Source: a virus. Taken from it: DNA of 46,766 nucleotides. Positions 21,181 through 46,766 of the stretch are shown one piece after another. A model generated the notes under the pieces. It ran no database searches, was not told the DNA's origin, and was given only the letters and a program-made list of their open reading frames with translations. The stretch spans positions 1 through 46,766 of the IMG/VR virus record IMGVR_UViG_3300036521_000012, one strand, 5' to 3'. The position numbers and the translations under genes were made by a program. Numbering within the stretch: the first letter of the stretch is position 1; the number at the start of each line of letters is the position of its first letter.

Positions 21181-21184
21181 CCGC

Positions 21185-24730: not shown

Positions 24731-24746
24731 GCTTTGGGAGCTTGCT

Positions 24747-25750: not shown

Positions 25751-25941
25751 GCGACCGCAAATTTCTGAAGGCCGCCGAGGGCCGCACCGTCCGCCTCGAG
25801 GAGACCGGCGAGCCCTGGCCGGCTGACGGCGACTGGGCCGAGAACACGCGCTTCGTGCGCCGGCGCCTTGCCGATGGCGACCTGGTCGAAGCCGCGCCGC
25901 CCAAGCCCGCCAAGCCCGCCGCCGACGGCGACAAGAAGTAA
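25747..25941 (+). CDS. DUF2635 protein (Mu gp38-like)
   Basis: A 64-aa protein with the usual content 'FLKAAEGRTVRLEETGEPWPADGDWAENTRFVRRRLADGDLVEA' and a basic Ala/Lys tail. DUF2635 members lie directly before the sheath gene in Mu-like phages. The role is unknown, probably tail assembly. Confidence 0.88.
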   Translation: MSDRKFLKAAEGRTVRLEETGEPWPADGDWAENTRFVRRRLADGDLVEAAPPKPAKPAADGDKK

Positions 25942-25953
25942 GGAGCGGCCCCG

Positions 25954-27417: not shown

Positions 27418-27465
27418 TCGACCCGCCCGCAACCGCGCTTCAAAGCGCCTTGAAAGGAGCCCGCG

Positions 27466-27828: not shown

Positions 27829-28247
27829 AGACGCAGGGCAGCACGATCGTCATCGACGAGAGCGAGGACGAGGGGACCGGCGCCCAGCTGGCGACCGGCG
27901 CGGCCATCGTCATCGAGGACGAGGGCGAGGACAAGAGGACGAAGCTGCCGGCCCGCGCCGTCCGCAATGACGACGGCACCATCACGCTGCCGCTGCTCGC
28001 TCCGGTCACGCTGACGGTCAAGAACGCGCGCGGAACCAAGGAAGAGCGCTACGACGAGATCGTCTTTCACGAGATGACCGGGCTCGACCTGCGCCTCGTC
28101 GCGCAGGCGCCGGCCGAGAAGCAGACGATCGTGGCGATGGCGCGCGCCGCCAGGATCTCGACGCAGCGCATGGACGCGCTGTTCGACCAGCTCAAGGCAA
28201 AGGACGTCACGGCCGCCACCGCCGTGATCTCGTTTCTCAACGAGTGA
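27825..28247 (+). CDS. Tail assembly chaperone (Mu gp41-like)
   Basis: The 140-aa protein has an acidic low-complexity N-terminus (VIDESEDEGTG...DEGEDKRTK, about residues 8-45). The core is 'LPLLAPVTLTVKNARGTKEERYDEIVFHEMTGLDLRLVAQAP', the P2 E/Mu gp41-like domain. The start is GTG. The stop codon overlaps a second open frame that lacks a start of its own, so a longer frameshift product is expected. Chaperones of this type bind the tape measure during tail assembly. Confidence 0.88.
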   Translation: MKTQGSTIVIDESEDEGTGAQLATGAAIVIEDEGEDKRTKLPARAVRNDDGTITLPLLAPVTLTVKNARGTKEERYDEIVFHEMTGLDLRLVAQAPAEKQTIVAMARAARISTQRMDALFDQLKAKDVTAATAVISFLNE

Positions 28248-28413
28248 GTGGCCGGACGACTGGCATCTGATCGTCGGCTCCGTCGCCCGCTACTACGGCG
28301 GCGGCTTCGACCGGGCGGAGGCCCTGACGCTGCCCGAGCTGCGCTGGTGGTTCAACATCGCCGCCGAGCTGGAGCGCCGGGCGAAAGAGGCCGCCGAGGC
28401 CGAGAGGAGCTGA
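28228..28413 (+). CDS. Frameshift extension of the tail chaperone (gp42-like)
   Basis: This frame is open from a stop at 28225-28227 to TGA 28411-28413. It encodes 'EWPDDWHLIVGSVARYYGG' and 'LPELRWWFNIAAELERRAKE', a GpE-like tail segment, but contains no ATG, GTG or TTG near its beginning. Reading it requires a +1 or -2 shift from gp41 inside 28228-28247. Mu and relatives are known to use a -2 shift here. The exact slip site is not clear: no textbook heptamer is present. Confidence 0.72.
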   Translation, partial: SRFSTSEWPDDWHLIVGSVARYYGGGFDRAEALTLPELRWWFNIAAELERRAKEAAEAERS

Positions 28414-28417
28414 GACC

Positions 28418-31758: not shown

Positions 31759-33002
31759 CGGTCGCCGGGCAGCCGACACGGCGGATCCGGCTCTCGATCG
31801 ACGGGCGCAACTTCGACCAGTTCGTGCGCGCGGATCTCGCCCATGATCTGAGCGAGCTGTCCGCCTCCTTCGACCTGACCTGCCGGGACGAGTTCCGCGC
31901 CGCGCAGAGCTGGGACTACGCCACGCCGGTCGACGGCACCGGCCCGCTCGACTGGGGCAAGCGGTGCGAGATCTTCGTCGACGGCGAACTCTGGCTGATC
32001 GGCCATGTCGACGAGGTCATGCCCGAGGCCTCGAACGGCCAGAGTTTCACCGTCATCAGCGGCCGCGATCTCACTGGCGACCTCGTCGATTGCCCGCCCG
32101 ATCCGCGCGGCAAGCACGAATATCGCGACCTCACTTTGACGGAGTTCGCCGAGAAGCTCTGCAAGCCCTTCTCGATCAAGGTCCGGGCCGAGACGGATGT
32201 TCTGCCGACATTCGACAAGATGACGGTCGAGGCCGGCGAGACGGTGCTCTCGGCAATCGCGAAATACGCCAAGCAGCGCGGCGTCCTCGTCACCACCGAC
32301 CGCGTCGGCACGCTCGTCATCACCCGCTCCGGCCAGGAGCGCGCCGCCGACGACATCGCCTTCCCCGGCAACGTCACCCGCTCGCGCGGCTCCTTTTCGG
32401 CCCGCGAGCGCTTCAGCGACTATTTCGTCAAGGGCCAGGGCGAGAAGAACGGCGGCAAGCGCGGCAAGACGCCGGCGCTGGACGCCACCGCCGAGCCGCT
32501 CGACACCGCGCCGACAAAGCCTGCGCCGGCGACCGACGACCCCGAGGATCTGCCCGAGGGTGCCGGCACGCTGGTCATGGGCCATGCGCGAGATCCGGAG
32601 GTGACGCGCTGGCGCCCCTTTATCGCCATGGCCCGCACGAAGGCGACCGCCTTCGACGCGCAGCGCCAAGCCGAATGGGAGATGCGCACCCGCCGCGGCA
32701 AGGGCGACAAGGAGGATTACACCTATCCCGGATACAGCGCGGCGGGCGCCCTGTGGAAGCCGAACACGCTGGCGCGGGTGACCGATACTTACGCCAATAT
32801 CGACCGCGACATGCTGCTCGCCGGCGTCCGGCTCACCTATGGCGAGCGCGGCGAGCGGACCGCGCTGCGCATGACCGGGCCTGAAGCCTACGACCTCCTT
32901 CCCGAGAACGACCGGCGCGCGGCCAAGGGCTCCGGCAAAAGCGCGGGCAAGAGCAGTTCGGCGAAGGGCGGCAAGCTCGACGGGACCGCGAGGCCGCTGT
33001 GA
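31755..33002 (+). CDS. P: Baseplate hub protein (Mu gpP/gp44-like)
   Basis: The 415-aa protein belongs to the tail protein D/gp27 hub fold: 'IDGRNFDQFVRADLAHDLSELSASFDLTCRDEFR', 'WLIGHVDEVMPEASNGQSFTVISGRDLTGDLVD' and the 'AIAKYAKQRGVLVTTDRVGTLVITRSG' segment. The C-terminus is basic (GSGKSAGKSSSAKGGK). GTG start, 4-base overlap with gpN. Confidence 0.92.
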   Translation: MTVAGQPTRRIRLSIDGRNFDQFVRADLAHDLSELSASFDLTCRDEFRAAQSWDYATPVDGTGPLDWGKRCEIFVDGELWLIGHVDEVMPEASNGQSFTVISGRDLTGDLVDCPPDPRGKHEYRDLTLTEFAEKLCKPFSIKVRAETDVLPTFDKMTVEAGETVLSAIAKYAKQRGVLVTTDRVGTLVITRSGQERAADDIAFPGNVTRSRGSFSARERFSDYFVKGQGEKNGGKRGKTPALDATAEPLDTAPTKPAPATDDPEDLPEGAGTLVMGHARDPEVTRWRPFIAMARTKATAFDAQRQAEWEMRTRRGKGDKEDYTYPGYSAAGALWKPNTLARVTDTYANIDRDMLLAGVRLTYGERGERTALRMTGPEAYDLLPENDRRAAKGSGKSAGKSSSAKGGKLDGTARPL

Positions 33003-33556
33003 TGGATCTGAAGGAGATCGTCCACGCCTTCCGCGGCATCGTCAGCCGCGCCGTCGTGCGCTCGACCAATGACGGCGGCGAGACGCAGACCGCGAGCGTC
33101 ACCACCCATCGCCATGTCGATCGCACCGATGTCGAGATCGCCCAGCCCTTCGGCCTGGCCTCGCGGGCTCCCAGCGGCGGGCTGATGGTCGTCTTCGCGA
33201 TCGGCGGCGACCAGGGCGATCTCGTCGGCCTGCCGGTGGCGGCGCCGGGCTCGCGCCTGGGCAACCTCGCCGAGGGCGAGACGGCGATCTACAACGCCAA
33301 GGGCGATCGCGTTCATCTCAAGGCCGACGGCACGATCGAGGTGCTCTCGGCCAACAAGGTGCTGGTGAAGGTGAAGGAAGCGACGGTGACGGTCGAGGAG
33401 GACCGCATCGTCGCGAAGATCGACGATTCCCGCCACGTCGTCCGGCCAACCTACGCCAAGACGCGCAAGGGCGACCATTGGGTCGTTGTGAACGACGCCG
33501 GAATCTGGTGCTCTGTCGCGCCGCTCGTGGGGCCGGATCCGGAGCCCAGTGCGTGA
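33002..33556 (+). CDS. Baseplate assembly protein V/spike (Mu gp45-like)
   Basis: The 184-aa protein has an OB-like domain and the strand-rich region of the spike: 'HRHVDRTDVEIAQPFGLASRAPSGGLMVVFAIGGDQGDLVGLPVAAP' and repeats such as 'AIYNAKGDRVHLKADGTIEVLSANKVLVKVKEATVTVEEDRI', the beta-helix tip. The last part is short and may carry a His-binding metal tip (RHVV). It pierces the outer membrane. It is followed by a cargo gene. Confidence 0.92.
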   Translation: MDLKEIVHAFRGIVSRAVVRSTNDGGETQTASVTTHRHVDRTDVEIAQPFGLASRAPSGGLMVVFAIGGDQGDLVGLPVAAPGSRLGNLAEGETAIYNAKGDRVHLKADGTIEVLSANKVLVKVKEATVTVEEDRIVAKIDDSRHVVRPTYAKTRKGDHWVVVNDAGIWCSVAPLVGPDPEPSA

Positions 33557-33596
33557 ACTTGCCTGGTTTCCGGCTCGTGAGATCGAAGGAGAACTG

Positions 33597-34748
33597 ATGC
33601 CTCCTGTTACAACGAGGACGTTGGGGCCTCTTCATCTTGAAGATCTGGAGCCGCACAGATTTGAAGATTTAGTCCGCCAGCTGCTCTACGACTTTCGGAA
33701 TTGGGGCCAGATAGAAGCTACAGGCAGGTCGGGTGGTGACGACGGTTTTGACGCACGTGCTTGGGAAATCACAGAAGCCGGTGGTACTCCAGAGATCGTC
33801 AGTGACGAACCTGAAGGCGAGCTAGTTCCGCTTCCGCTGCCCGCTCGCCAATGGCTGATCCAGTGCAAACGTGAGAGGACGATCGGTCCGTCGCAGCTAG
33901 TCAAGTACCTCGCTTCTTTGCCAGCCGATGGCTCTCTCGCGGGCCTGATATTCGTTGCGGCTTGCGACTTCTCCAAACGGGCTCGAGACGCCTTTAGAGA
34001 TCGCGTGCGCGAGTTGGGGATCGGCGAAGCCCATCTTTGGGGTAAAGGTGAACTGGAAGATCAGCTTTTCCAGCCCAAAAACGACCATCTGCTCTTCGCT
34101 TACTTCGGGATCTCGCTGCAGGTTCGGCGCAGGAGCCTGCGGGCGACCACGCGAAGCACCGTAACGATCAAGCGTAAGGTCAAACGCCTCCTTTTCCCTG
34201 GCATGGAGTATCTGGTTCGCGACGTCACAGACGTTAGGTACCCGTGGCGCGATGAAGCCAAGGGCAGAGATTTTGCCTATGGCCGATGGCGGGTGATCAA
34301 ATACGCAGGGATGCAGCATGATGGTCTCCGTTTCGAGGCCCGCCGCCATTACGCTTACCTGTCAGATGACGGTCAAAGTTGGGATTGGTCGGAGCTTTTC
34401 AATCTCGCGGCGCCTCATCAATCTGGAGACCCTTGGGCTCCTGACCGGGAGAAAATCCAAAAGGGGCGGGACCAAGCTTTCGAAGAGTGGTCTGCACTCC
34501 CGGAGGCGAATAGAGGGTACGGCGTGATCGAGGTTGTATTGCCTTTCGATGCAATCCTGGAGGTCGATGACATCGGTGATGATTGGTTTGAGCAGCCCCA
34601 CGTGTTGGTCGATCAGTGCGACGCTTTGATGGGGCCGTTTCGCAGCGACTTTAGTTTTTGGATCGAGCGGTACATCACGTCGGCTGAATCATTAGCGTAC
34701 CCCGCATTCGACGCGCGAGTATCAAAATTCTCTACCAAACAGCCCTAG
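33597..34748 (+). CDS. Cargo gene: Mrr-like PD-(D/E)xK nuclease, 383 aa
   Basis: The start at 33597 has GAAGGAG upstream; an ORF extension to 33549 overlaps gp45 and lacks one. The N-terminal domain has restriction-endonuclease-fold signs: Glu23 in FEDLV, GDDGFD at residues 47-52, and QCK at 89-91. A 'KYLASLPADGSLAGLIFVAAC' helix and strand and a 'GEAHLWGKGELEDQL' segment follow. The C-terminal 200 residues are unrecognised and may be the target-sensing part. It breaks the conserved gp45-gp46 order in a region of lower GC. A defence nuclease against other phages or modified DNA is likely but not proven. Confidence 0.8.
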   Translation: MPPVTTRTLGPLHLEDLEPHRFEDLVRQLLYDFRNWGQIEATGRSGGDDGFDARAWEITEAGGTPEIVSDEPEGELVPLPLPARQWLIQCKRERTIGPSQLVKYLASLPADGSLAGLIFVAACDFSKRARDAFRDRVRELGIGEAHLWGKGELEDQLFQPKNDHLLFAYFGISLQVRRRSLRATTRSTVTIKRKVKRLLFPGMEYLVRDVTDVRYPWRDEAKGRDFAYGRWRVIKYAGMQHDGLRFEARRHYAYLSDDGQSWDWSELFNLAAPHQSGDPWAPDREKIQKGRDQAFEEWSALPEANRGYGVIEVVLPFDAILEVDDIGDDWFEQPHVLVDQCDALMGPFRSDFSFWIERYITSAESLAYPAFDARVSKFSTKQP

Positions 34749-34794
34749 TGCAGCCCGCCGGCGCTGGTTCGGTTGATGTTCCATCATCTAACAG

Positions 34795-34814
34795 AGGCCC
34801 TGACCTCGGGGCCT
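34795..34814 (+). terminator. Late-boundary hairpin 3
   Basis: AGGCCCTGA and TCGGGGCCT, around CC, form a slightly mismatched version of the stems at 14107 and 21768 and are again followed by CTGTC. It lies 34 bases before gp46 and just after the cargo nuclease gene. Another GC palindrome-like stretch sits between it and the ATG. Confidence 0.6.
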
Positions 34815-34848
34815 GTCCGGGCTCGCGCGCGCGCGTCAATTTCGCGCC

Positions 34849-35310
34849 ATGTCCTTCCTCGACGCCGCTCTGGTCTTTGACCCTGCGACCCGCCGCGCCG
34901 ATCTGGTGCTGGGCGAGGATGGCGACCTCCTGCTCGACGAGACCCCGGCGACGCCGATGCTGATCTCGCTCGGCACCGACCGCCGCGCCGAGCCCGACGA
35001 TGAGCTGCCGTCGGGCATCGACGCACTCAACGCCTCGACCTCTTTCGTGGCCCGCCGTGGCTGGGTCGGCGACGCGCTCGACCCTCGCGGGCGCCGCATC
35101 GGCTGCCGGATCTGGCTGCTCGATCGCGCCAAGCAGACCGAGACGACGCGGCGTTTCTGCATCCTGTGGGCCGAGGAGGCGCTGGCCTGGGCGGGTGAGG
35201 AACTGGCACAGCCGGCGCAGGTCACCGCCGAATGGATCCGCCGCGGCACGCTGGCCCTGCGCTGCGTCGTCGACGGTACGGCGGTCGAGCGCCGGCTGCA
35301 GGTGCTCTGA
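34849..35310 (+). CDS. Baseplate wedge protein (Mu gp46-like)
   Basis: The 153-aa protein has the gp46 (DUF1973-type) features 'MLISLGTDRRAEPDDELP', 'RGWVGDAL' and 'RRIGCRIWLLDRAKQTETT'. It forms a wedge with gp47 and gp48. The upstream neighbour should be gp45, but a cargo gene intervenes. It overlaps the gp47 start by one base. Confidence 0.9.
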   Translation: MSFLDAALVFDPATRRADLVLGEDGDLLLDETPATPMLISLGTDRRAEPDDELPSGIDALNASTSFVARRGWVGDALDPRGRRIGCRIWLLDRAKQTETTRRFCILWAEEALAWAGEELAQPAQVTAEWIRRGTLALRCVVDGTAVERRLQVL

Positions 35311-36413
35311 TGCCGTTTCCGCTGTCGAGTCCGGAGGAGCTGGCCGAGAGCCAGGCCGTCGAGATGGCCGCCGCGCTGAAGGCGCTGCGGCCCGATGTCG
35401 AGCCGCTGGCGATCGACCGCGCCGTGCGCTCTGAGAAGGGGCTCGTCGCCGCCCATGTCCGCACCGACGCCATTGGACTTTACGAGACCCATCTGCATCT
35501 GCGCTGGTGGGGCGACCAGTACATGCCCGACACGGCCGAGCTGGAGGCACTGATCCGGCACGGCTCGATCTGGGGCGTCTATCAGCGCGCGGCGACCAAG
35601 GCCGTGGGCTTCGCCGCCTTCACCGGCACGCCCGGGCTCGCCATTCCCCTCGGCCTGCAGCTGCGCACGCCGGGCGGCGCGCTGGTCGAGACCTCCGAGG
35701 CCGGCGTCGTCGGCGACGGCGGCAGCGTCACGCTCGCGCTCGTCGCGACCGAAGGCGGAACCGCCGGCAACACGGCCGGGGGCGCGACGCTGCCGATCGT
35801 GACCGCGCTCGCCGGGCTCGACCCGCAGGCCGCGACGCTCGATGGGGACGGGCTCAAGGGCGGCGCGGCCGAGGAGACGCCGGCCTCGCTGCTGGAGCGC
35901 CTGCTCGCCGTCATCCGCGAGCCCGGCCATGGCGGCGCCGACTTCGACTATCCGAACTGGGTGCGCTCGGCCTTCGCGGCCTCGAAGGTGAAGACGATCG
36001 CCAACTGGGTCGGGCCCGGCTCGGTCGGCGTGGCGGTGGCGATGGGCACGGCGCTGGCGCCCGAGGAACCGTCGCCGGCCGAGATCGCGGCGATCGCCAC
36101 CCATCTCGAAGGGCTGCGCCCGGTGACGGCCGAGCTTCATGTCCTGGCCTATCTCCCGCTGGTCGTGCCCTTCACGCTCGCGATCACGCCCGACACGCTC
36201 GCCAACCGCGCCGCCGCGCAGGCCGCGCTCGCCGACCATTTCGCGCGGGAGGCGACGATCGGCGGGCGCATGGAGCTGTCGCGGATCTCGGAAGCCGTCT
36301 CGGCCGCCAATGGCGAATACGCCCATCGCATCGAGAGCCCGGCCGCGGCGATCGCGCCCGCGCCGCGCGAGCTGCCGCTGCTGGGCGCCATCACCTGGGA
36401 GGCCTGGTCGTGA
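35310..36413 (+). CDS. Baseplate J protein (Mu gp47-like)
   Basis: The 367-aa protein belongs to the Baseplate J family: 'VAAHVRTDAIGLYETHLHLRWWGDQYMPDTAELEALIRHGSIWGVYQRAATKAVGFAAFTG', the 'GTAGNTAGGATLPIVTALAGLDPQAATLDGDGLKGGAAEETPASLLERLL' beta domain and a C-terminal helical domain. It joins the wedges to the central hub. Confidence 0.95.
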   Translation: MPFPLSSPEELAESQAVEMAAALKALRPDVEPLAIDRAVRSEKGLVAAHVRTDAIGLYETHLHLRWWGDQYMPDTAELEALIRHGSIWGVYQRAATKAVGFAAFTGTPGLAIPLGLQLRTPGGALVETSEAGVVGDGGSVTLALVATEGGTAGNTAGGATLPIVTALAGLDPQAATLDGDGLKGGAAEETPASLLERLLAVIREPGHGGADFDYPNWVRSAFAASKVKTIANWVGPGSVGVAVAMGTALAPEEPSPAEIAAIATHLEGLRPVTAELHVLAYLPLVVPFTLAITPDTLANRAAAQAALADHFAREATIGGRMELSRISEAVSAANGEYAHRIESPAAAIAPAPRELPLLGAITWEAWS

Positions 36414-37018
36414 GCCGCAGTCCCGACCAGGTCCAGGCCGATCTGTTGGCGCACGCCCCGCAAGGCTGGGTCTGGCCGCATCTCGCTCCAAACGCGCCCG
36501 ACAGCACCTTTGAAACGCTCTTCAAGCCGCTCGCACAGGGCCTCGCCGCAGTTGAGGCGACCGCCGAGGCGATGATGGAGGAGATCGACCCGCGCACGGC
36601 GACGCTCCTCTTGCCGGATTTCGAGCGGGTGCTGGGGCCGGACCCGTGCGGGCGCGATCCCTCGACGATGTCGCTGGAGCAGCGCCGGCAGCTCGCCCAC
36701 CAGCGCTGGACCGCCCGCGGCGGCGCCTCGATCCCTTACTTCGTGGCGCTCGCTGCCAAGCGCGGCGTCGCGATCACGATCAGCGAGAACCGGGTCTCCT
36801 ACGCCGGCGAGATGGTCTGCGGCGACGAGATCGTCGAGCCGCCCGAGCAGTTCATCTGGACCGTCCATCTCGCTTTGATCGGCGAGACGCTGTTCGAGGC
36901 CGGTGCGGGCCAGGCCGGCGACCGGCTCTACGACCTGATCCTGTCGGACGTCGAATGCGACATCCGGCGGGTCAAGCCCGCCCACACCGAAGTCGTCTTC
37001 AACTACGAGGAAGCCTGA
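36410..37018 (+). CDS. Baseplate wedge protein (Mu gp48-like, DUF2313/YmfQ)
   Basis: The 202-aa protein has the DUF2313 landmarks 'LLAHAPQGWVWP', 'LFKPLAQGLAAVEATAEAMMEEIDPRTATLLLPDFERVLG' and 'QRRQLAHQRWTARGGASIPYFVALAAKRG'. The GTG start overlaps the gp47 stop, and its own stop overlaps the fibre start. It is the wedge component that links the fibre region. Confidence 0.92.
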   Translation: MSRSPDQVQADLLAHAPQGWVWPHLAPNAPDSTFETLFKPLAQGLAAVEATAEAMMEEIDPRTATLLLPDFERVLGPDPCGRDPSTMSLEQRRQLAHQRWTARGGASIPYFVALAAKRGVAITISENRVSYAGEMVCGDEIVEPPEQFIWTVHLALIGETLFEAGAGQAGDRLYDLILSDVECDIRRVKPAHTEVVFNYEEA

Positions 37019-38079
37019 TGGATCGCATCATTCATCCGACAGCCGTCGACATCGGCGGCGGCAGGCGCGGCTTCCGCTCGAAGGACACCGTTGCGGGGCT
37101 GCCGGGCACGGTGGTCACCGCCGCCCATATGAACGCCCAGCAGGAAGAAATCTTAGCGCTGATCGAGGCCTGCGGGTTCTCTCCCGACGCCGCCAAACTC
37201 TATCAGCTGCTGCTCGCCGTCCGGTCCCAGCGCCCGAACTTCATCCCGACGATCGGCGGCTCGGCCGATGCCCTGACCGCGACGCTTGACCCGGAACCGG
37301 AGGATTGGGACGAACTGACCGGCACGCCGTTCCGCTTCGTCGTCTCGACCACCAATACCGGTGCCGCAAATCTCGCCATCACGGGACTGCCCGGCACCAA
37401 GGACATCGTCTATCCCGGCGACAACGCGCCGATGCTGGCGGGCGAGCTGATCCAGGGTGCGGTGCGCACCGGCCTCTATGACGGAACGCGGGTGCAACTG
37501 ATCGACGCCGGCTCGCGCGTCCGCGGCGGTGTGTCGTTCCGTGGCATGGTGATGTTTACCGCGTCCGGCACCTTCAACCCAACGGCCTATGGGTTGACCA
37601 TTCACGATCGAATACTGGGCCTCCTCTGGGGAGCGGGGGGTGGTGCGGCCTCCGATGCCGGAACCTATGGTGCTGCCGGCGGCGGTGGTGGATTTTCAAT
37701 GAAGAGCTTTAATTGCCCTCCCACTCCTACAGGCGCGACGGTCGGTGCAGGCGGGGCAGGTGCCACGGGCGGCGGAAATGGCAATACAGGAGGGACGACC
37801 TCCTTCGGAGCGCTCTTCTCCGCGACAGGTGGTGCCGGCGCCACGGCGGGACCAGGCGCGGGCGGCAATGGTGTCGGCGGCGATGTCAACCTGCCCGGCG
37901 GCTATGGCGGCGACATCATCAACTCGGACGTCTCGGCGGCGATCGGCGGCGCTGCACCCTTGATGGGGAACCAGCCGATTGATTCTGGGACGGGCCTTAA
38001 TCCGATCGGCTCCGGCGGCGCGGCCCGTCTGTTCAACGCGCAGAATGGGCAGGCCGGCGCCATTCTGCTGATCTGGTAG
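37018..38079 (+). CDS. Tail fibre with glycine-rich C-terminal tip
   Basis: The 353-aa protein starts with a short attachment region (MDRIIHPTAVDIGGGRRGFRSKDTVAGLPGTVVTAAHMNA). A middle region (about residues 75-185) has the look of a trimeric fibre linker. The last 150 residues are dominated by glycine: 'GAGGGAASDAGTYGAAGGGGG', 'GAGGAGATGGGNGNTGG', 'ATGGAGATAGPGAGGNGVGG'. The end is 'GGAARLFNAQNGQAGAILLIW'. Gly-rich motifs of this sort build polyglycine-II tips in phage adhesins. It is probably the receptor-binding protein. Confidence 0.82.
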   Translation: MDRIIHPTAVDIGGGRRGFRSKDTVAGLPGTVVTAAHMNAQQEEILALIEACGFSPDAAKLYQLLLAVRSQRPNFIPTIGGSADALTATLDPEPEDWDELTGTPFRFVVSTTNTGAANLAITGLPGTKDIVYPGDNAPMLAGELIQGAVRTGLYDGTRVQLIDAGSRVRGGVSFRGMVMFTASGTFNPTAYGLTIHDRILGLLWGAGGGAASDAGTYGAAGGGGGFSMKSFNCPPTPTGATVGAGGAGATGGGNGNTGGTTSFGALFSATGGAGATAGPGAGGNGVGGDVNLPGGYGGDIINSDVSAAIGGAAPLMGNQPIDSGTGLNPIGSGGAARLFNAQNGQAGAILLIW

Positions 38080-38091
38080 GGAGCGGCTTAC

Positions 38092-38640
38092 ATGCAGCGT
38101 TTCGCCCGTATCGCCGACGGCGTTGTCGTCGAGATCATGTCCTCGCCCGATGGCGAGGATTTTGCCGAGCTGTTCCACCCGGAAATTGTCGCGGCCTGCC
38201 GCCCTTGCGGAGCAGAGGTAACACAGGGCTGGCTGCTGAAAGCGGGCGAGCTTGTTGCGCCGCCGCCACCGGCGCCTCCCACTCGAGCTGAGCTGATCAC
38301 CAGGCTGAAAAACCAGCGCTGGCAGCGCGAGATCGCCGGCGTCACGGCCATGATCGGCGGGCAGCCGGTGCTGGTCTCGACCGCGCGGGGTGACGAGCGC
38401 GCGACGCTGCACGCCACGCTGACCGCGATCAGTTTGGGCCTGCGCAGCGATGGCGCAACCTACAACTTCGCCGACGGCGTGCCGCGGGCGGTGAGCAACG
38501 CCGACATGCAAGGAGCCATCATGGCGGCGCTCGCCCATGTCCAGGGCGCCTTCGACCTCGAACTGGCGCTGACGGCCGACATCGAGGCCGGCGAGATCAC
38601 CGCCTTCGCCGACATCGACGCCGCCTTCGCGGCCGCCTGA
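38092..38640 (+). CDS. Fibre-associated protein with DUF4376 domain
   Basis: The 182-aa protein starts 'MQRFARIADGVVVEIMSSPDGEDFAELFHPEI', typical of fibre-linked or fibre assembly proteins. A Pro-rich linker (APPPPAPPT) follows, then a DUF4376-like C-terminal half (LKNQRWQREIAGVTAMIGGQPVLVST to DMQGAIMAALAHVQGAFDLELAL). It may be a fibre chaperone or minor fibre part. Confidence 0.78.
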   Translation: MQRFARIADGVVVEIMSSPDGEDFAELFHPEIVAACRPCGAEVTQGWLLKAGELVAPPPPAPPTRAELITRLKNQRWQREIAGVTAMIGGQPVLVSTARGDERATLHATLTAISLGLRSDGATYNFADGVPRAVSNADMQGAIMAALAHVQGAFDLELALTADIEAGEITAFADIDAAFAAA

Positions 38641-38812: not shown

Positions 38813-39445
38813 ATGCCAATCAAGCTTTTCAATTGGTCCCAGGGCCATACCGCATTGGCAGGGGTTCCTGGTGCCCATGATGCGATTGCAATCACGATAT
38901 CGACGGGCTCGGCCATCGAGGTGGACTTCGCGACATTGCTCGCGCTGCTGATGCAGACAGAGATCGACGCCGCGCTCACCGTCTGGGCAAACGTGCGGGG
39001 AGCCGATTCCCAGGAAAAAGCAATTCTCAGTGTGGCTAAGCAAAAGCTCGGTGCTGAGGAGCTCGCCTTGCTGCAGGGGGTCCTGAAGGAGACGAAGTCG
39101 TTCCGAGGAATGCGCGACAACTTCGCTCATGGCATATGGCTTCGGGCTGAAAATCTCCCAGGCCAGGCCGTCCTGCGGAAAGTCAGTGAAGGCGCCAGGT
39201 TTCAATCGGCCATCCTCTCGGGGCGCCCCGGCCTTATTGAAATCACCGTCGAAGAAAAGGACGTGTTCGGCGAGCCTGAGTTTCAGCGTGTTGTAATCAG
39301 TGCAACGCGGGCGAAATCGCTCACAGCCCAGCTCCTTTGGCATTTCCTGCAGAAGCGCCTCCGCCCGGAGGACGAACATCCCAAGCTGCTGGTTGAAACC
39401 CAGGGGAGACTCGAACAGGTGCGGGCCAATTTCCCAGCAGTCTAG
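38813..39445 (+). CDS. Cargo gene: HEPN-like protein, 210 aa
   Basis: The start at 38813 has GGAG 8 bases upstream. The helical N-terminal half includes 'FATLLALLMQTEIDAALTVWANV' (residues 39-61) and 'LKETKSFRGMRDNFAHGIW', with an Arg-x4-His motif at Arg101-His106. This is the HEPN pattern. The C-terminal half has beta strands (IEITVEEKDVF, FQRVVISATR) and may be a separate domain. The lower GC content and the interrupted flanking gene mark it as recently acquired. The role is probably phage defence or toxin-like RNA cleavage, but this is by motif only. Confidence 0.7.
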   Translation: MPIKLFNWSQGHTALAGVPGAHDAIAITISTGSAIEVDFATLLALLMQTEIDAALTVWANVRGADSQEKAILSVAKQKLGAEELALLQGVLKETKSFRGMRDNFAHGIWLRAENLPGQAVLRKVSEGARFQSAILSGRPGLIEITVEEKDVFGEPEFQRVVISATRAKSLTAQLLWHFLQKRLRPEDEHPKLLVETQGRLEQVRANFPAV

Positions 39446-39626
39446 GCGTTCGGCGCGCCGGCCTTCATCCACCAGGCGGGCTAGTTCTGGAAGCGTGACA
39501 GGGGAGCCCAAGGGCTCCGGCGGCTCAACTTGCAGGGAGCGCCGCCCGACGAGAGCAAGATCACATCGCCCGTCACGGCGGCCGAGGCCGCGCCTGATTG
39601 GGCGACGATTCTGGACTGCAGCACAA
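39446..39626 (+). other. Remnant sequence before the methylase
   Basis: The 181 bases contain a coding-like frame that reads 'AFGAPAFIHQAG', an amber stop, then 'FWKRDRGAQGLRRLNLQGAPPDESKITSPVTAAEAAPDWA' (in parts), running on to TAA near 39651 inside the methylase gene. This looks like the tail of a decayed phage gene, perhaps the same one that starts at 38651. No complete gene is present. Confidence 0.4.
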
Positions 39627-40457
39627 ATGGATTCCGTGATCCCGGTTAACCCGCTGGCCGGTTATGTCGGCGGCAAGAAGCAGCTCGCCCGCACGATCAT
39701 CGCCCGCATCAGCGGCATCGAGCACGAACTCTATGCCGAACCCTTCGTCGGCATGGGCGGCGTCTTCCTGCGCCGGCCGAGCCGACCCAAGGTCGAGGCG
39801 ATCAACGACGCCTCGCAGGACGTGGCAACCTTCTTTCGCGTGCTCCAGCGTCACTACCAGGCCTTCCTGGACATGCTGAAATGGCAGGTGACGAGCCGGG
39901 CCGAGTTCGCCCGCCTGGCCGCCCAGGACCCCGCCACGCTCACCGACCTGGAGCGCTCGGCGCCGTTCCTCTATCTCCAGCGCCTCTCCTTCGGCGGCAA
40001 GGTCACCAGCCGCAGCTTCGGCATCGACACGCACTCGCCGGCGCGCTTCGACATCACCCGCCTCGTGCCCATGCTGGAGGCCGTCCACGAGCGCCTCGCC
40101 GGCGTCTGGATCGACAGCCTGGGCTGGGAAGCGTTCATCCAGCGCTGGGACCGGCCGAAGACGCTGTTCTATCTCGACCCGCCCTATTGGGGCACGGAGC
40201 ACTACTATGGCCGGGGATTATTCGAGCGATCCGACTTCGAGCGCCTCAGCACTGCTTTACAGGGCCTTCAAGGCCGCTTCATCCTGTCGTTGAACGACGT
40301 GCCCGAGGTGCGCGAGCTGTTCGCCTGGGCCTCGATCGAGACGGTCGAGCTGAGCTATCAGGCGGGCGGAGGGGGCAACACAAAGCCGGTGCGGGAGGTC
40401 ATTATTGCGGCACGGCCTCATCCGTCGAATCGCTTACGACAACTTGACCAGCCGTGA
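39627..40457 (+). CDS. Dam-type (D12 class) DNA adenine methylase
   Basis: The 276-aa protein has the D12-class motifs: GGKKQL (residues 15-20) and EPFVGMGGVF (38-47) for S-adenosylmethionine binding, and DPPYWG (184-189) as the catalytic motif. The start at 39627 is chosen because it is the first ATG before the first motif; there is no strong ribosome binding site. It probably methylates adenine in phage or host DNA and might protect against restriction, like mom in the same right-end position in Mu, though the chemistry differs. Confidence 0.9.
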   Translation: MDSVIPVNPLAGYVGGKKQLARTIIARISGIEHELYAEPFVGMGGVFLRRPSRPKVEAINDASQDVATFFRVLQRHYQAFLDMLKWQVTSRAEFARLAAQDPATLTDLERSAPFLYLQRLSFGGKVTSRSFGIDTHSPARFDITRLVPMLEAVHERLAGVWIDSLGWEAFIQRWDRPKTLFYLDPPYWGTEHYYGRGLFERSDFERLSTALQGLQGRFILSLNDVPEVRELFAWASIETVELSYQAGGGGNTKPVREVIIAARPHPSNRLRQLDQP

Positions 40458-40609
40458 GCAGGTCCGTGGAAGCCGACATGCCTCGAACGACGACTTGGGA
40501 GCTTCAGTATGGTTGTGTAGACTGCCTCAGAGTGAGTTCCTGCGCGGCTTCTCAGGACGGGAAACGGACTGATCAGGTCTCGGATAAAAAGGCTATCGAG
40601 AGACCCCCA

Positions 40610-42175
40610 ATGCACCGCCTCCGTTTTTCGCCAACTTTAGCAAATGCGCCCGCCAAATCGAAGGTTGCTGACTCTAGTAATCTCTTCCTGTGGCTGGTTT
40701 TCGCCATATTGGTGCTTTCGGCCATTGTTTTGGCGCGGCTGAACTTGTTCAATGAGAACATCTCCGGGCGAATGTATCTTCACGCGCTACCGACCGCGAT
40801 ATCGTATCTTTATCATGGTCATAACGCCGATCACACAGCGCTCTCCGAGATCGCCAACGTGTTCTACGCCTTCGGCGGACATTACCCTCCCGATGGCATT
40901 GACGCCTCCATTCGAAGAGCGCTTCAGGTCAAGGTGCTGGACCGCACAAATCTCTATTTTTGGGGTGCCGACGACCGAGGGTTGGGCGAGTTCGTCGTTG
41001 CGTCCTTCGCGCTGTTTGGGCCGCGCCACGCCGCGCTCATCATGGGATACTTCGTTCTCTTGGGCGCCGGAGCGATGTTGCTGGCCTGCCAGGAAAGGGC
41101 GCGGCCGCAAAATTTCGTGCCGGTCCTTTGTCTCGTGGCAGGGTGCTGCGTCGCCAGCTGGTATCTGGTGTTCCTGACGGCTGATTTTCGGGACGTTCTA
41201 ACGAGCGTGCCCCGCAATCCAGCCGCCAACATCACAGAGAGTCGCGGCTTCGATGTGCTTGCTCTCCTGCCGGCCTGCGGCCTGTTCCTCCTCTTCAAAA
41301 ACAGACGGCGCAACTGGGTATTTTTCGCGGCCGCACACGTTCTCTATCTCTATGCAATCGTACTCATTCGCTCGTCAGCCCTCACAGCGGGACTGGTGGT
41401 TGCGATTGCAATGCTGGTGTCTCTGTCGGTCGATCGCTTTCGGGGGACAGCGGACCGCCAAGCAATGGTCCGGCTTGCCGTGATTTTCGGTTTGCTGATC
41501 GCAGGGCATTTGGCTGGCAAGCTTTACATGCGTGCTACGCACCATCCGGCTTACTTTGCCGAGCAGGGCACCCGTACCGTTTGGCACAATCTGCTGATGG
41601 GGTTGGCGGATACCAAGCTCGGGAAGCGCTATGTGGACGGGCTGACCGACCCTGCCGCTGTCGCGGGCGTCATCAAGTGGATGCGCGAGCGTGACGATCC
41701 GCGTTTGGAGCAGGAATGGGCAAAGCGGTATGTCCCCAACACGTTCGGTTATCCTGGATTCGATGTCACCCAGTATGAAGCGGCCGCCCGCAGCATGTAC
41801 CTGCACCTGCTAACGCGACGCCCTCTCGAAGTAGCTGGCAAGGTCGTCTTCGGCATGAAGTTTGCGGGCGCGTACCTGTTCAGGGCATCGCTACAGCTTG
41901 TAAAACGTCAATGGCTGGCGTTCGTGGCGCTGGCAGCCATCGTATGCATGTTTCGGGTTAGGGGTCCGACCAGGGCCGACTTCGCCGTCTTCCTGTGCAG
42001 TGGGGCGTTGGTTGGCCTCCTGCCGACGGTCGTGTTTTATTTCGTCCCTACCTCTCTCATCATCTCCACCGGGGCGATGATAGCGCTGGTCCTGTTGCTC
42101 ATTTCGATGACCGCCTCGGCGATCGTAGATCGGTATTCAACGTCGCATGAGCCATCCATCCGGGCCGCTATCTGA
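40610..42175 (+). CDS. Cargo gene: large polytopic membrane protein, 521 aa
   Basis: The start at 40610 is chosen because the first transmembrane helix begins shortly after (about residues 25-43). About nine or ten hydrophobic segments follow, including one near residue 150 and a cluster near residues 430-510. A large loop (about residues 290-400) is hydrophilic and contains 'YVDGLTDPAAVAGVIKWMRERDDPRLE'. The overall shape suggests a polysaccharide or O-antigen-type membrane enzyme, but no signature residue was found. It is the last phage gene. Surface alteration that blocks other phages is plausible. Lower GC than its neighbours. Confidence 0.7.
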   Translation: MHRLRFSPTLANAPAKSKVADSSNLFLWLVFAILVLSAIVLARLNLFNENISGRMYLHALPTAISYLYHGHNADHTALSEIANVFYAFGGHYPPDGIDASIRRALQVKVLDRTNLYFWGADDRGLGEFVVASFALFGPRHAALIMGYFVLLGAGAMLLACQERARPQNFVPVLCLVAGCCVASWYLVFLTADFRDVLTSVPRNPAANITESRGFDVLALLPACGLFLLFKNRRRNWVFFAAAHVLYLYAIVLIRSSALTAGLVVAIAMLVSLSVDRFRGTADRQAMVRLAVIFGLLIAGHLAGKLYMRATHHPAYFAEQGTRTVWHNLLMGLADTKLGKRYVDGLTDPAAVAGVIKWMRERDDPRLEQEWAKRYVPNTFGYPGFDVTQYEAAARSMYLHLLTRRPLEVAGKVVFGMKFAGAYLFRASLQLVKRQWLAFVALAAIVCMFRVRGPTRADFAVFLCSGALVGLLPTVVFYFVPTSLIISTGAMIALVLLLISMTASAIVDRYSTSHEPSIRAAI

Positions 42176-42341: not shown

Positions 42342-42382
42342 TTGCCATTTGATTGTTCGCTGATTGCCATTCGATTGTTCGC
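42342..42382. repeat. Two MuA-type end-binding repeats (R2 and R1)
   Basis: TTGCCATTTGATTGTTCGC (42342-42360) and TTGCCATTCGATTGTTCGC (42364-42382) match at 18 of 19 positions and start exactly 22 bases apart, the size of MuA sites. They end 6 bases before the proposed terminal CA. They should bind the phage transposase at the right end. Confidence 0.8.
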
Positions 42383-42383
42383 G

Positions 42384-43109
42384 CTACATGAAGGGATCGC
42401 CCGGCCTGATCGCCGCCGGCGGCGCCTGCCAGAGTTCGAGGGCGGCATCCGTTCCGGTCGCGGCGTGGCGCTTCACCTCGGTCGCAAAACCGACGGCGTC
42501 TCCGCCGGTGAAGACCAACCGGCCGCCGGTGAGGTATCCGTCCGGGAAGGCGGCCAGCGCCGTCGCCGTCAGGCTCAACCGGCCGTCCGTCGTCATCACG
42601 GCGGCTTCGGCGGGAGCTAGCGCGACACCGCAGCGGGCATCGCCGAGATCGGCTGAGCATGAGCGCAGGTAGAGCCGCCCGCGCTCCTCGTCGAAGGCCT
42701 TGGCCAGCCCCCGCACCTCGGCCGTGAAGGCGCCGTCGCTGCGGCGAACCTCGCCGACGAAGCCGGTTTCGATAAGGAGGCGCTGGGCGGGATCGGCCCA
42801 GTTGACCAGCCAGAGCCTCACCCTGGCATCGTCATAGAGCCCGCGGGCGAGATCGGCCTCGTTCAGTCCGCTCGCCGCGAACGCGCCGGAGACGTCGCCG
42901 CCTCCGACCGCGAAGCCGAGCTCCGCGCTCATCTCCGCCGCCTCGAGCCCGGTCGTCGCCGCGAAGGTGACGCCGTCGAAGACGAGGGGGCCGTCATGGT
43001 CGGTGAAGCCGAGGACGAGACCGTCCCGCCGCGTCAGGCTCCAGCAGCGGCAAAGCGTGGTCGCGCCCTGGGCCAGATGGTCGGCCAGGGCCTCGGGGAT
43101 CGCGCGCAT
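42384..43109 (-). pseudogene. GTA tail hub gene g13 (DUF2163), truncated by prophage
   Basis: The gene starts at 43109 and encodes 241 residues with the DUF2163/TIGR02218 features 'LADHLAQGATTLCRCWSLTRRDGLVLGFTDHD', 'TGLEAAEMSAELGFAVGG', 'FDEERGRLYLRSCSADLGDARCGV' and 'ALELWQAPPAAIRPGDPF'. It then meets Met-stop, the stop lying inside the phage end (42384-42386). Family members normally continue for about 50 more residues with a Cys-rich 'TAGCDKRF..C..KF.N..NFRGFPH'-type segment, here absent. The missing part, with g14 and g15, should lie left of the prophage. The hub would be non-functional. Confidence 0.9.
42387..42393. other. Right prophage-host junction (attR) and predicted target repeat
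   Basis: CA at 42387-42388 is the expected 3' terminal dinucleotide of a Mu-type end. The next five bases, TGAAG (42389-42393), are the predicted target duplication, which should also lie just outside the left end. The GTA g13 frame is intact up to here. Confidence 0.65.
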
Positions 43110-43129: not shown

Positions 43130-43768
43130 TCAGAACAGGATCTCGACGACCGGAATCCGCGGAATCTCGCCGGCCTCGAAGGCCGAGAGGTCGATCTCGA
43201 TCGCGTCGATGTCGAAGCGCACCGGCACGTCGAACAGGAAGCCCGCCGTAACCACGGCGCCCGGCGCGGGCGCATGGCCGGCTGCGAAGGTCACCAGACC
43301 GTTCGTTGCGTCGCAGGTGACGTGGGCGGGGTCGACGGCCGTTCCATCGACCGCGACCATGACCTCGCCGGGAACCGGTTTGCGGATCGGGCGGCGGTAG
43401 GTCGCCAGGCCCGTGCCGTAATGCTTGCAGAGCTGGAAACTCGCCGTAAGGCCATCGCCGGTGCCGATCGCCAGGTCGGTCGCCGTGGGGCCCTGCGAGG
43501 GCGGGCAGCTCTTCCAGTCGAGGCCATCGCGCCAGCGGAAGCCGTAGAGCCGGCCGCGGCGCTCCTCGAAAAAGGCGACGACCTCCGCCAGCGCATCGAG
43601 GCTGCGGATGCCGAGGCCGGCATCGTAGCGCCGGCGGGAATGGGCCCAGCGGCTGTTGCGCACTTCGCGGCCCGACGCGAGCGCGACGATCTGCGTTAGG
43701 CGCTCGGGCCCGCCACGCGCCCCACGGGCGATGTCGGTCGGAAAGCGGATCTCGTGGAAATCGCTCAT
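43130..43768 (-). CDS. GTA distal tail protein g12 (DUF2460)
   Basis: The 212-aa protein matches the DUF2460/TIGR02217 family: 'FHEIRFPTDIARGARGGPERLTQIVALASGREVRNSRWAHSRRRYDAGLGIRSLDALAEVVAFFEERRGRLYGFRWRDGLDWKSC' (in parts), ending 'FEAGEIPRIPVVEIL'. In RcGTA it is the distal tail ring at the tip of the tube. It is intact and lies between tape measure and hub genes. Confidence 0.93.
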   Translation of the reverse strand: MSDFHEIRFPTDIARGARGGPERLTQIVALASGREVRNSRWAHSRRRYDAGLGIRSLDALAEVVAFFEERRGRLYGFRWRDGLDWKSCPPSQGPTATDLAIGTGDGLTASFQLCKHYGTGLATYRRPIRKPVPGEVMVAVDGTAVDPAHVTCDATNGLVTFAAGHAPAPGAVVTAGFLFDVPVRFDIDAIEIDLSAFEAGEIPRIPVVEILF

Positions 43769-43779: not shown

Positions 43780-44370
43780 TTAGAGCGCGCGACCGCCGCG
43801 GGCGACGGCCCGCGCGATCGCGGCCGACACCTGTGCCTCCGAGCGTCGGAAGCTGTCGGCATCCGGTGTGGAGACCTGAACGACGACGTTGAGCGGGCGG
43901 CGCGTCTCGGCCGAGGAGCGGACGCCGAGCTTGCCGTCGGCGCCGCGCGACAGCGGCAGAATCGCTTCGGCCCCGCGCTCGCCCATCAGCCCGAGCCCCC
44001 GCCCGAGCGGGAAATAGGCGGGCGAGGCGATCACCCCGCCTTCGGCGAAGGGGGCGACCGGAGCGGCGCTCCCTCCTCCCAGGCCGACACCGCCGAACAG
44101 GCCGGTCAGCCCCTTGAGCCCCGTCCCCAGCAGGTTGGAGAGGCTGGACTGGAGCGGCTTCAGCGCCGATTTCAGCAGCGTTTCGGTGATCGAGCGACCG
44201 ACGCTGCGCAGCACGTCCTCGAAGCGCTTTCCCTCGACGATGCCCTTGGCGAAGGCGTTGGTGATCGATCTGCCGAAGCTCGCGGCGGATTTGTCGAGGC
44301 TCTGCGTCAGCGAGCCGAGCGCGCGCAGGTCGGAGAGGCGGGAGGACAGGTCGATCTCGTCATCGAGCAT
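43780..44370 (-). CDS. GTA tape measure-like protein g11
   Basis: The 196-aa protein has the GTA tape measure pattern: a short helical N-terminus and 'FAKGIVEGKRFEDVLRSVGRSITETLLKSALKPLQSSLSNLL', then 'APFAEGGVIASPAYFPLGRGLGLMGERGAEAILPLSRGADGKLGVRSS' and a C-terminal 'NVVVQVSTPDADSFRRSEAQVSAAIARAVARG'. It is short, as expected for GTAs with short tails. It overlaps the upstream gene by 11 bases. Confidence 0.92.
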   Translation of the reverse strand: MLDDEIDLSSRLSDLRALGSLTQSLDKSAASFGRSITNAFAKGIVEGKRFEDVLRSVGRSITETLLKSALKPLQSSLSNLLGTGLKGLTGLFGGVGLGGGSAAPVAPFAEGGVIASPAYFPLGRGLGLMGERGAEAILPLSRGADGKLGVRSSAETRRPLNVVVQVSTPDADSFRRSEAQVSAAIARAVARGGRAL

Positions 44371-44607: not shown

Positions 44608-44988
44608 TCAGGCCGACGGCGGCGAGGGAGGGCGCGGCGGCGTCTCCTGCGGGCCGCAGCCGGCGATGGGCTCGGCGGCGGGATCGGAGAAGGTCGCGTC
44701 GAGCAGAGCGATGGCGGCCCTGATGGCGCCGTTGAGGCCGCCATCGAAACCGAGTTCGGCGACCTCGCGATCGTCGATCGTGGCGCCGGCCCCGCGCAGC
44801 CCGGCACCGAGAATGCGCGCGACGTCACGCGCCGATAGCCGGCCGGAGGCGAAGCGCTCGCCCAGCGCCGGCAGGCTGTCGACGCTGAAGGCGTGTTCGA
44901 GTTCGGCGAGCGCGCCCAGTGTCAGCCGCATCGGCAGCGCCTCGCCTTGGACCATCAGCGCGGTGTCGCCACGGTGCCGGTTGATCAT
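44608..44988 (-). CDS. GTA family protein g10
   Basis: The start at 44988 follows GAGGAGACG. The 126-aa protein has 'INRHRGDTALMVQGEALPMRLTLGALAELEHAFSVDSLPALGERFASGRLSARDVARILGAGLRGAG' (in parts), the typical gene transfer agent family core. The C-terminus is Pro-rich. It is a tail assembly chaperone-like protein paired with g10.1. Confidence 0.9.
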   Translation of the reverse strand: MINRHRGDTALMVQGEALPMRLTLGALAELEHAFSVDSLPALGERFASGRLSARDVARILGAGLRGAGATIDDREVAELGFDGGLNGAIRAAIALLDATFSDPAAEPIAGCGPQETPPRPPSPPSA

Positions 44989-44998
44989 CGCCGTCTCC

Positions 44999-45409
44999 TC
45001 AGAGGGCCGTGAAGGCGAGCTGGCCGGCCGATTCCAGGGACAGGTCGAAGGTGACCTCGCCGGCATGGTCGCCGCGATATTCCAGGCTCGAGAGCTGGAA
45101 CGGGCCGGTCACGGTGCCGAAATCGGGCACGATCACCTGCCAGTCGCGGATCACGCCGTCGAAGAATATCTGGCGGACCAGCGCGTCCGAGGCCTCGTCC
45201 TTGAAGATGCCGGCGCCGCTGATCGCGGCGCGGCGCATGCCGGCTCCCGCCAGCAATTCGCGCCAGCGACCGGCGGATTCGGAATGCGTGACATCCACCG
45301 TCTCCGCATTGAAGGCGATCTGGCGCGCCCTCAGCCCGGCGACGGTGACGAACACCCCGCCCGCATCCGCCGCCTTGAGCAGCAGGTCCTTGCCCTTCTG
45401 TGCCGACAT
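44999..45409 (-). CDS. GTA major tail (tube) protein g9, TP901-1 type
   Basis: The 136-aa protein belongs to the TP901-1 major tail family: 'AQKGKDLLLKAADAGGVFVTVAGLRARQIAFNAETVDVTHSESAGRWRELLAGAGMRRAAISGAGIFKD' (in parts), ending 'YRGDHAGEVTFDLSLESAGQLAFTAL'. It forms the GTA tail tube. The frame is intact. Confidence 0.94.
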   Translation of the reverse strand: MSAQKGKDLLLKAADAGGVFVTVAGLRARQIAFNAETVDVTHSESAGRWRELLAGAGMRRAAISGAGIFKDEASDALVRQIFFDGVIRDWQVIVPDFGTVTGPFQLSSLEYRGDHAGEVTFDLSLESAGQLAFTAL

Positions 45410-45441: not shown

Positions 45442-45852
45442 TCAGAGCGCTTCCGTCACCGCGCGGAAGCGGATCGCGACGGACGCCAGGCCGGTCACGG
45501 CGTCGCGGGCCAGGCGGTTCGAGCGCCAGCGCAGATTGACCAGCCGGTGGCCCGACAGCGTGAGACCGGCCCCGTCGAGCAGAGCGACGATGCGCGCGGC
45601 GGCTTCCAGCGCCAGCCGCAACGAGCCGCTCTCGCCGGCCCAGACGGTGAGGCCGAACTCCTGCTCGCAGCCGCTGTCGCTGCCGGTCGACCAGTCGCGC
45701 GCCTCGACCTCGCCATGCACGATGTAGGTGCCGCCAGCGCCCCGCGGCGCCTCGTCATGGATGCGGGCGGGGCCGATCAGGGCGGTGAGGCCTGGATCGG
45801 TTTCGAGCCGCGCCTGGATCGCGGCGCGAAGGGCCAGAATGGAGTCGCTCAC
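45442..45852 (-). CDS. GTA tail terminator g8 (DUF3168)
   Basis: The GTG start at 45852 overlaps the g7 stop. The 136-aa protein has DUF3168 features 'LRAAIQARLETDPGLTALIGPARIHDEAP', 'YIVHGEVEARDWSTGSDSGCEQEFGLTVWAG' and 'ALLDGAGLTLSGHRLVNLRW'. It caps the tail and joins it to the head. Intact. Confidence 0.93.
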   Translation of the reverse strand: MSDSILALRAAIQARLETDPGLTALIGPARIHDEAPRGAGGTYIVHGEVEARDWSTGSDSGCEQEFGLTVWAGESGSLRLALEAAARIVALLDGAGLTLSGHRLVNLRWRSNRLARDAVTGLASVAIRFRAVTEAL

Positions 45853-46193
45853 GGTCCGATCTCCTGCACCAGACAGACCAGCCGGCGCCGGCCGCCATCG
45901 GGGTCGGCCACCGCGCGGATGTCGAAGAGGCGGTCGCCCTCGCGCAGGCGCTGGCCGGCATCGACCCCGGCGCGCCAGCGCAGGGTGACGCGGTGCGTCG
46001 CGGCCTGTTCGGGCCGGCCGCGGCGCCAGTGCTCGCCGCCGGCAAGCCATTCGAGCTGGGCCCAGACGGCGGCGACGGTCTAGAAAGCCTGCGTCGTTCC
46101 GCCGAGACCGTCGGGCGTCGCCACCGCCGCCTCCAGCAGAAGCCGCCGCCGCAGCGCCCCGACGGGGGCCCGTTCCTGATTCGAAGGCGCCAT
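45849..46193 (-). pseudogene. GTA head closure gene g7 with in-frame amber stop
   Basis: The frame from ATG 46193 to TGA 45849 spans 115 codons, but codon 38 (46080-46082) is TAG. Upstream it reads 'GALRRRLLLEAAVATPDGLGGTTQAF' and downstream 'TVAAVWAQLEWLAGGEHWRR', then 'VTLRWRAGVDAGQRLREGDRLFDIRAV'. This is a full head-tail adaptor/stopper sequence on both sides of the stop. It is therefore a single-base nonsense mutation in an otherwise intact gene, most likely from a Trp, Gln or Glu codon. Amber suppression cannot be excluded. Confidence 0.86.
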
Positions 46194-46196: not shown

Positions 46197-46766
46197 TCAG
46201 AGCCTCGCGCGGCGGAACGGCGCGATCAGCGCCAGGATCTCGGGCGGCAGCGCCTCCGCATCGCGCCCGACGACATCGCCGCGATGCTCGAACCAGCGCG
46301 CGGCCAGGCGCAGGATCGCCTGTCGCAGCAGGGCCGGAACCGCGGCCGCAGTCGCACCGAAGCCGGCCACGACATCGATCTCGATCGCGCCCTGGGCCCG
46401 GCCGATTTCCGGCACCTCCCCCACCACCTGCAGGAGCGGCGGATCGGCGCTGGTGTCGAGACGCAGCGCGGACGGCTCCACCGGCTGGGCGATGCCGAGT
46501 GCGTCATAAACCCGCGCAGCCGTGATCGCAGAGACGGGTGCGAGCGGCAGCCGCAGCGCGCCGCCCTGCGGCCAGCGATCGATTACGATGCGCCAGCTCT
46601 GATCGACGAGCAGGCGCCCGGACGCGGCTTCCACCATCAGCCGGGCGGCCGTGATCAGCGTGGCCAGCAGATCGTCCTCCGCCGCCTCCTCAAGGCGCAG
46701 GAAGGCGCGCGCCTCGGCCAGCGAGACCGGCTCCTCGGCCGGCGGGGTCAGGGCAAGCGGCGTCAT
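46197..46766 (-). CDS. GTA head-tail adaptor g6
   Basis: The 189-aa protein is complete at the window edge. It begins 'TPPAEEPVSLAEARAFLRLEEAAEDDLLATLITAARLMVEAASGRLLVDQSWRIVIDRWP' (in parts), a typical phage gp6-like head-tail connector. The C-terminal 'PALLRQAILRLAARWFEHRGDV' helices match this family. It is the first of the visible GTA genes; g1-g5 should lie to the right of the window. Confidence 0.94.
   Translation of the reverse strand: MTPLALTPPAEEPVSLAEARAFLRLEEAAEDDLLATLITAARLMVEAASGRLLVDQSWRIVIDRWPQGGALRLPLAPVSAITAARVYDALGIAQPVEPSALRLDTSADPPLLQVVGEVPEIGRAQGAIEIDVVAGFGATAAAVPALLRQAILRLAARWFEHRGDVVGRDAEALPPEILALIAPFRRARL

Follow-up and report, generated by a model that had tools for sequence, protein, structure and literature searches.

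Recurrent, site-preferring integration of a Mu-like phage family into RcGTA-type gene clusters

A family of Mu-like phages integrates recurrently, and with a preference for particular sites, into gene transfer agent (GTA) clusters, which is a stronger finding than the single insertion carried by the DNA described here. Mu-like phages are textbook random integrators. The window, i.e. the whole stretch of 46,766 bases that was analyzed, is an IMG/VR virus record and not a host genome; since both ends of the record coincide with gene boundaries, it is taken to be a trimmed provirus. The prophage in it has the following features.

1–42388, plus strand: Mu-like transposable prophage, recognized from MuA, MuB, Gam and contractile-tail morphogenesis genes; right end placed by comparison with relatives.
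1634–2350, minus strand: S24-peptidase (CI-like) repressor (PF00717, 2e-15).
2432–2683, plus strand: Ner-like winged helix–turn–helix (HTH) protein (PF13693, 1.2e-15).
2683–3561, plus strand: ParB-like protein (PF02195, 3e-9).
3558–5750, plus strand: MuA-type DDE transposase of 730 amino acids (PF02316, PF00665, PF09299; family alignment).
5807–6580, plus strand: MuB/TniB-type AAA ATPase, a candidate for target capture (PF13401, 1.2e-13; PF05621 TniB, 2e-5, above the cut-off).
8517–9020, plus strand: protein with a DnaA C-terminal HTH (PF08299, 5.8e-14).
8806–9540, plus strand: Mu Gam-like protein (PF07352, 1.6e-37).
17012–30430, plus strand: terminase, portal, minor head protein, protease/major head region, tail sheath and tape measure (PHROGs).
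31755–38640, plus strand: baseplate hub, wedge and tail fibre genes (PHROGs).
39300–40457, plus strand: D12-class adenine methyltransferase (PF02086, 2.8e-18).
40454–42175, plus strand: open reading frame of 573 amino acids at the phage right end, without a family match (reading frame and Pfam).

The assignment to the Mu-like phages is based on the transposase, which has the Mu DNA-binding and C-terminal domains (PF02316, PF00665 and PF09299), on the adjacent MuB-type AAA ATPase (PF13401/PF05621) together with Gam (PF07352), on TG...CA termini with a 5-bp duplication (the right terminus being that of the window and the duplications those of the relatives G002, G025 and G037), and on a contractile-tail and head module with sheath, tape measure, baseplate, portal and terminase. 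The left terminus was placed ~1.5 kb beyond the left edge of the window (base 1) by comparison with the relative G023, in which the left end lies 5107 bp from the transposase start, versus 3557 bp for the part contained in the window. The methyltransferase and the 573-residue reading frame (39300–42175) occupy the right end of the phage, a usual position for cargo. A DnaA C-terminal HTH is found in the product of 8517–9020, and GafA, an activator of GTA, also has a DnaA-like HTH (PMC6363796).

The first-pass annotation had placed the right end of the prophage inside the hub gene g13 of an RcGTA-type cluster, and this is where it falls, after codon 240 of g13, which is read on the minus strand. 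The corrected boundary has 42388 as the last phage base and 42389 as the first g13 base, and the junction comprises the following features.

42343–42381, minus strand: right-end repeats resembling transposase sites, CGAACAATCRAATGGCA, at 42343–42359 and 42365–42381; the repeat is common to relatives.
42385–42388, minus strand: right terminus of the phage, which reads 5'-TGTA on this strand (...TACA), from the sequence and relatives.
42389–42393, minus strand: predicted 5-bp target duplication, CTTCA in the sense of g13, from the duplications in G002, G025 and G037.
42389–43109, minus strand: GTA g13 (hub), 5' part, 240 of 293 codons, from the frame, homologue alignment and Pfam.

The phage-end repeat CGAACAATCRAATGGCA thus occurs twice near the right end, with a chance expectation of 0.22 at three or fewer mismatches, and duplications of 5 bp were verified in relatives as GATAC (G002), CGTAG (G025) and GCCGC (G037). 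As described beforehand, the g13 frame runs from 43109 on the minus strand to ...AAIRPGDPF and then reads M and stop. The junction is CCGGGCGATCCCTTCA/TGTAGCGCGAACAATC, to which the host contributes the A and the phage TG and TAG; in the sense of g13 it is ...CCGGGCGATCCCTTCA/TGTAGCGCGAACAATCGAATGGCA, where the host A and the phage TG make up an ATG, followed at once by the phage codon TAG. Pfam recognizes in the remnant the N-terminal domain of the hub (PF09931, 1.8e-60) and PF09356 in truncated form. Intact g13 homologues have 293 amino acids and a C-terminus of the form ...GCDKSFATCR.KFGNG.NFRGFPH.PGNDFIIGG...; GCDKSFATC and the C-terminus belong to the part missing from the window. Because the nearest intact g13 has 293 residues and 240 codons remain, 53 residues are lacking, where about 50 had been estimated.

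From 42389 onwards, the window carries an RcGTA-type cluster on the minus strand, in the order g13 (5' part), g12, g11, g10, g9, g8, g7 and g6.

43130–43768, minus strand: GTA g12 (DUF2460; PF09343, 9.8e-82).
43780–44370, minus strand: GTA g11, 82% identical to the Bosea AAP35 homologue.
44689–44991, minus strand: GTA g10, by GTA protein comparison.
44999–45409, minus strand: GTA g9 (tail protein), 97% identical to the Bosea AAP35 homologue.
45445–45852, minus strand: GTA g8, by GTA protein comparison.
45852–46193, minus strand: GTA g7, with a premature in-frame TAG at codon 38 (46080–46082), by homologue comparison.
46200–46766, minus strand: GTA g6, by GTA protein comparison.

The cluster is RcGTA-like in that ordered homologues of g6–g13, including the distal tail and hub, are 76–97% identical to the Bosea GTA cluster. 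It is not a complete functional cluster within the window, in which g13 is truncated and g7 has a nonsense codon, g1–g5 and g14–g15 lying outside; g7 homologues have no stop at the position of codon 38. The possibility that the GTA genes are the phage's own was rejected, as the two are on opposite strands, the hub is cut short and phage-free intact clusters are common.

IMG/VR and GTDB contigs were searched with g13 and with the transposase. Five related phages, that of the window included, are inserted in g13 within 13 bp, in both orientations and in different Bosea-type hosts. Counted from the first base of a conserved GGC codon, the offsets are 0 (L093), 8 (G002), 10 (G026), 13 (the window) and 13 (G023). 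G023 (IMG/VR 3300048586_000893) is inserted at the same nucleotide as the phage of the window, but it is the left phage end that faces the 5' part of g13; the g13 alleles of the two share 78% amino-acid identity and the transposases 91%. The right ends of L093 (3300048586_000120), G026 (3300035014_000028) and the Bosea MAG G002 lie 13, 3 and 5 bp upstream of this point, respectively. Among the four phages with a known transposase, identity to the enzyme of the window is 73–91%. The five insertions are independent, as they differ in position and orientation and in the g13 allele and the phage sequence involved. In G002, g13 residues 1–242 and 235–293 are found on separate contigs, each adjoining a phage end and both with GATAC, and a search for an intact g13 copy in this genome gave only these two halves. 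As related phages have come to lie at the same few bases of g13 at least five separate times, the site is a preferred landing site and not an accident.

The ends of most family members were located with a scoring matrix of left ends, and their flanks were compared with GTA proteins. Twelve further relatives are inserted in or just upstream of g1, g2, g3, g5 and g15. G025 lies within g1, with CGTAG on both sides, while the insertions of G793 and G250 (the same as G033) precede the start of g1 by 28 and 64 bp, respectively, and that of G037 (the same as G018) precedes the g1/g2 reading frame by ~190 bp, with GCCGC on both sides. G354 is inserted in g2, and L275, L295, L284, L297 and L325 are inserted in g3 at about residues 212, 214, 221, 243 and 340, respectively. 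G117 is inserted in g5, which in this case is 43 kb from g13 on one contig, and L265 in g15. Together with g13, the GTA-linked insertions number 17, all independent. Counts from IMG/VR are inflated for GTA because flanks of this kind look viral and are therefore retained. A second count was made in whole genomes sampled on taxonomic grounds, with the transposase as query; they were not selected for the state of the GTA, and the genus Bosea and its family were chosen for sampling through g13 matches. In these genomes, six insertions (G002, G250, G018, G354, G117 and G793) of the 44 with a readable left flank are in, or no more than ~200 bp upstream of, the GTA cluster; a hand calculation from ~15 kb in ~5 Mb puts the random expectation at ~0.13.

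The GTA cluster is one of several recurrent sites of the family. Five independent insertions (G121, G809, G391, G030 and G101, with flanks including L359, L362, L421 and L430) lie 2–25 nt past the stop codon of a Hydrolase_2 gene, which encodes a SleB-like cell-wall hydrolase. Four (G036, L165, G062 and G131) lie upstream of serC, a label that comes from reading the protein sequence, Pfam having given no match on the fragment; two of these are only 1–2 bp apart with opposite ends facing the gene. G236, G239, G269 and G055 are inserted 72–92 bp upstream of tRNA-Met or tRNA-Phe, L258 lies 26 bp past tRNA-Ser, and some family insertions are at unrelated loci. Targeting specific to clades was considered and found unsupported, the hotspots being scattered over the transposase tree; since separate branches use the same hotspots, the choice of site looks like a property of the family. 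At three further places (L363, L169/L247 and L235) one family phage is inserted right beside another, with facing ends 5 bp (CGTCA, gggcg) or 7 bp apart.

These observations are probably best explained by DDE transposition of a Mu-like phage into g13, splitting the gene, within a family that uses a few recurrent loci in the manner of attTn7. Lysogens would then form non-randomly at a small set of chromosomal loci, as for Tn7 with attTn7, and the RcGTA-type cluster would be one of these, its hotspot being a stretch of 13 bp close to the 3' end of g13. The complex of transposase and ATPase is most likely brought to such loci by a DNA-bound partner or by a local feature or state of the DNA, and would insert at short, slightly variable distances, like Tn7-like systems. 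Tests of k-mers and base composition around the insertion sites gave no shared motif that explains g13. Near some intergenic sites, AGTCAA (the -35-like TTGACT) is over-represented, relative to a background that is mostly coding and among sites that are related, and is therefore treated as a lead. Hexamers of this type (TTGACT/TTGACA) lie ~9–46 bp from intergenic sites and point away from the phage (L165, G036, L361, L367, L258 and others), and hint at promoter-linked targeting. The Mu duplication consensus NYSRN was also tried and is not followed by the duplications of the family.

Random Mu transposition could in principle give a similar picture if hits in a dispensable and costly GTA cluster survived better and so accumulated. 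GTA genes are non-essential in R. capsulatus in culture, some insertions are at unrelated loci, and those in g3 are distributed along the gene; as they scatter over ~400 bp, part of the GTA enrichment could reflect tolerance of disruption. However, selection cannot put five independent insertions into 13 bp of a dispensable 15-kb cluster or five within 25 nt past one hydrolase stop codon, and tolerance alone should distribute hits across all non-essential DNA; as the main explanation it is therefore regarded as unlikely. It is highly improbable that the join of phage and GTA was produced by misassembly or by the provirus caller. Although the record is a trimmed provirus without its left junction and metagenome contigs can be chimeric, the junction is exactly at a phage terminus that is independently defined in many relatives, the five cases span several metagenome records and one MAG, and matching duplications flank the phage in G002 as well as in G025 and G037, each of the latter two a single contig. 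Targeting guided by RNA or homology, through a short phage sequence matching g13, is barely credible: positions 30920–30945 of the window match the end of g13 beside the junction (26 bp, 92%), but there are many comparable chance matches in GC-rich sequence, and no such match links the examined part of the G023 phage with the g13 that it occupies. The guide-like match was accordingly rejected as a composition effect.

Transposition into a few recurrent loci has parallels in known systems. Enterobacteria phage Mu shares with the family the MuA domains, the AAA partner, Gam, the TG..CA ends and the 5-bp duplication; however, Mu integrates nearly at random, whereas the present family has recurrent loci, a 13-bp cluster of insertions in g13 and a different, weak duplication preference. 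The nearest sequenced isolated phages by transposase, Rhodobacter phage RC1 and Rhodovulum phage RS1, are only 36% identical. The Citromicrobium phages phiA and phiB are likewise alphaproteobacterial Mu-like prophages with 5-bp duplications and strong hotspots: phiA lay within one 40-bp zone in 24 of 24 parental and newly lysogenized strains and phiB has six hotspots, but their targets are a hypothetical gene and other sites, unlike the GTA here (PMC12486242). In that study, lytic transposition was chromosome-wide and GTA-like genes were neutral targets (PMC12486242). Tn7 and Tn7-like elements also occupy recurrent fixed places in or beside conserved genes (attTn7, tRNA and comM sites; PMC10293859), as does the present family at g13, the Hydrolase_2 3' end and the region upstream of serC. 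Unlike Tn7, the present element is a phage, and its insertions are scattered by a few to tens of base pairs. The phage genes covered by the Pfam scans gave no match to a TniQ/TnsD target selector.

In the RcGTA hub, the ion-binding domain includes residues 250–263, the clip domain spans residues 264–296, and an iron–sulfur cluster is held by four cysteines (PMC7296036). Loss of GTA function is expected because the missing part of g13 is the ion-binding/clip region and because g14 and g15 are severed from the upstream genes; the truncated hub and blocked g14/g15 expression would abolish GTA transfer. A conflict between a selfish and a domesticated element is a plausible reading. In view of the g7 TAG, the prophage may, in the host of the window, either have silenced a working GTA or have entered one that was already failing. 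The GTA of the window might already have been dead, so that the prophage entered a decaying relic and no conflict between elements took place in this host. This possibility, which is doubtful but deserves consideration, agrees with the TAG at g7 codon 38 and its absence from homologues. Against it, the remaining GTA frames of the window are open, with identities to intact counterparts mostly of 77–97%; the three other checkable g13-inserted clusters have no comparable lesion; and the TAG may stem from an assembly error or from a change after insertion. In G002, G023 and G026, no stop comparable to the g7 TAG was found among the checkable GTA genes of each; the lone stops scored in G002 and G026 are read as lying in antisense or spurious stretches of the query or in stretches before the start. 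The g13 insertion is thus the sole lesion seen in the checkable genes of these three, and prophage silencing of a working GTA is more plausible for them than for the host of the window.

A second type of element has also interrupted g13. In Methylobacterium sp. E-045 (L027, the same as G333; also L438), g13 is interrupted at GCDK by a Tn7-like element (10757–16988 in L027) with TnsA-, TnsB-, TnsC- and TniQ-type genes, flanked on either side by a duplicated ACAAG. Of the 397 genomes in the family sample, g13 was found in 309, and among the matches listed a split g13 was recognized solely in G002 and G333. It may be suggested, tentatively, that unrelated mobile elements, namely a Mu-like phage family and at least one Tn7-like transposon, share RcGTA-type clusters as recurrent attachment sites, and that insertion there is favoured since it silences a host system able to spread or restore element-free DNA. 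If true, this would be the GTA counterpart of prophages inactivating natural transformation. A host gene for horizontal transfer is likewise broken when comM or another competence gene is inactivated by a prophage or a Tn7-like element (PMC12637031, PMC10293859), but those elements hit DNA uptake, whereas the present case hits GTA production.

The gene targeted by this phage family is part of a domesticated phage that serves host DNA sharing. The finding opens to testing how sites are chosen by a MuA/MuB system in which no TniQ was found, as well as the loss of GTA in some lineages, and it provides the split g13 as a marker of GTA inactivation for genomes and metagenomes. It also widens the idea of mobile elements disabling host gene exchange from competence to GTAs.
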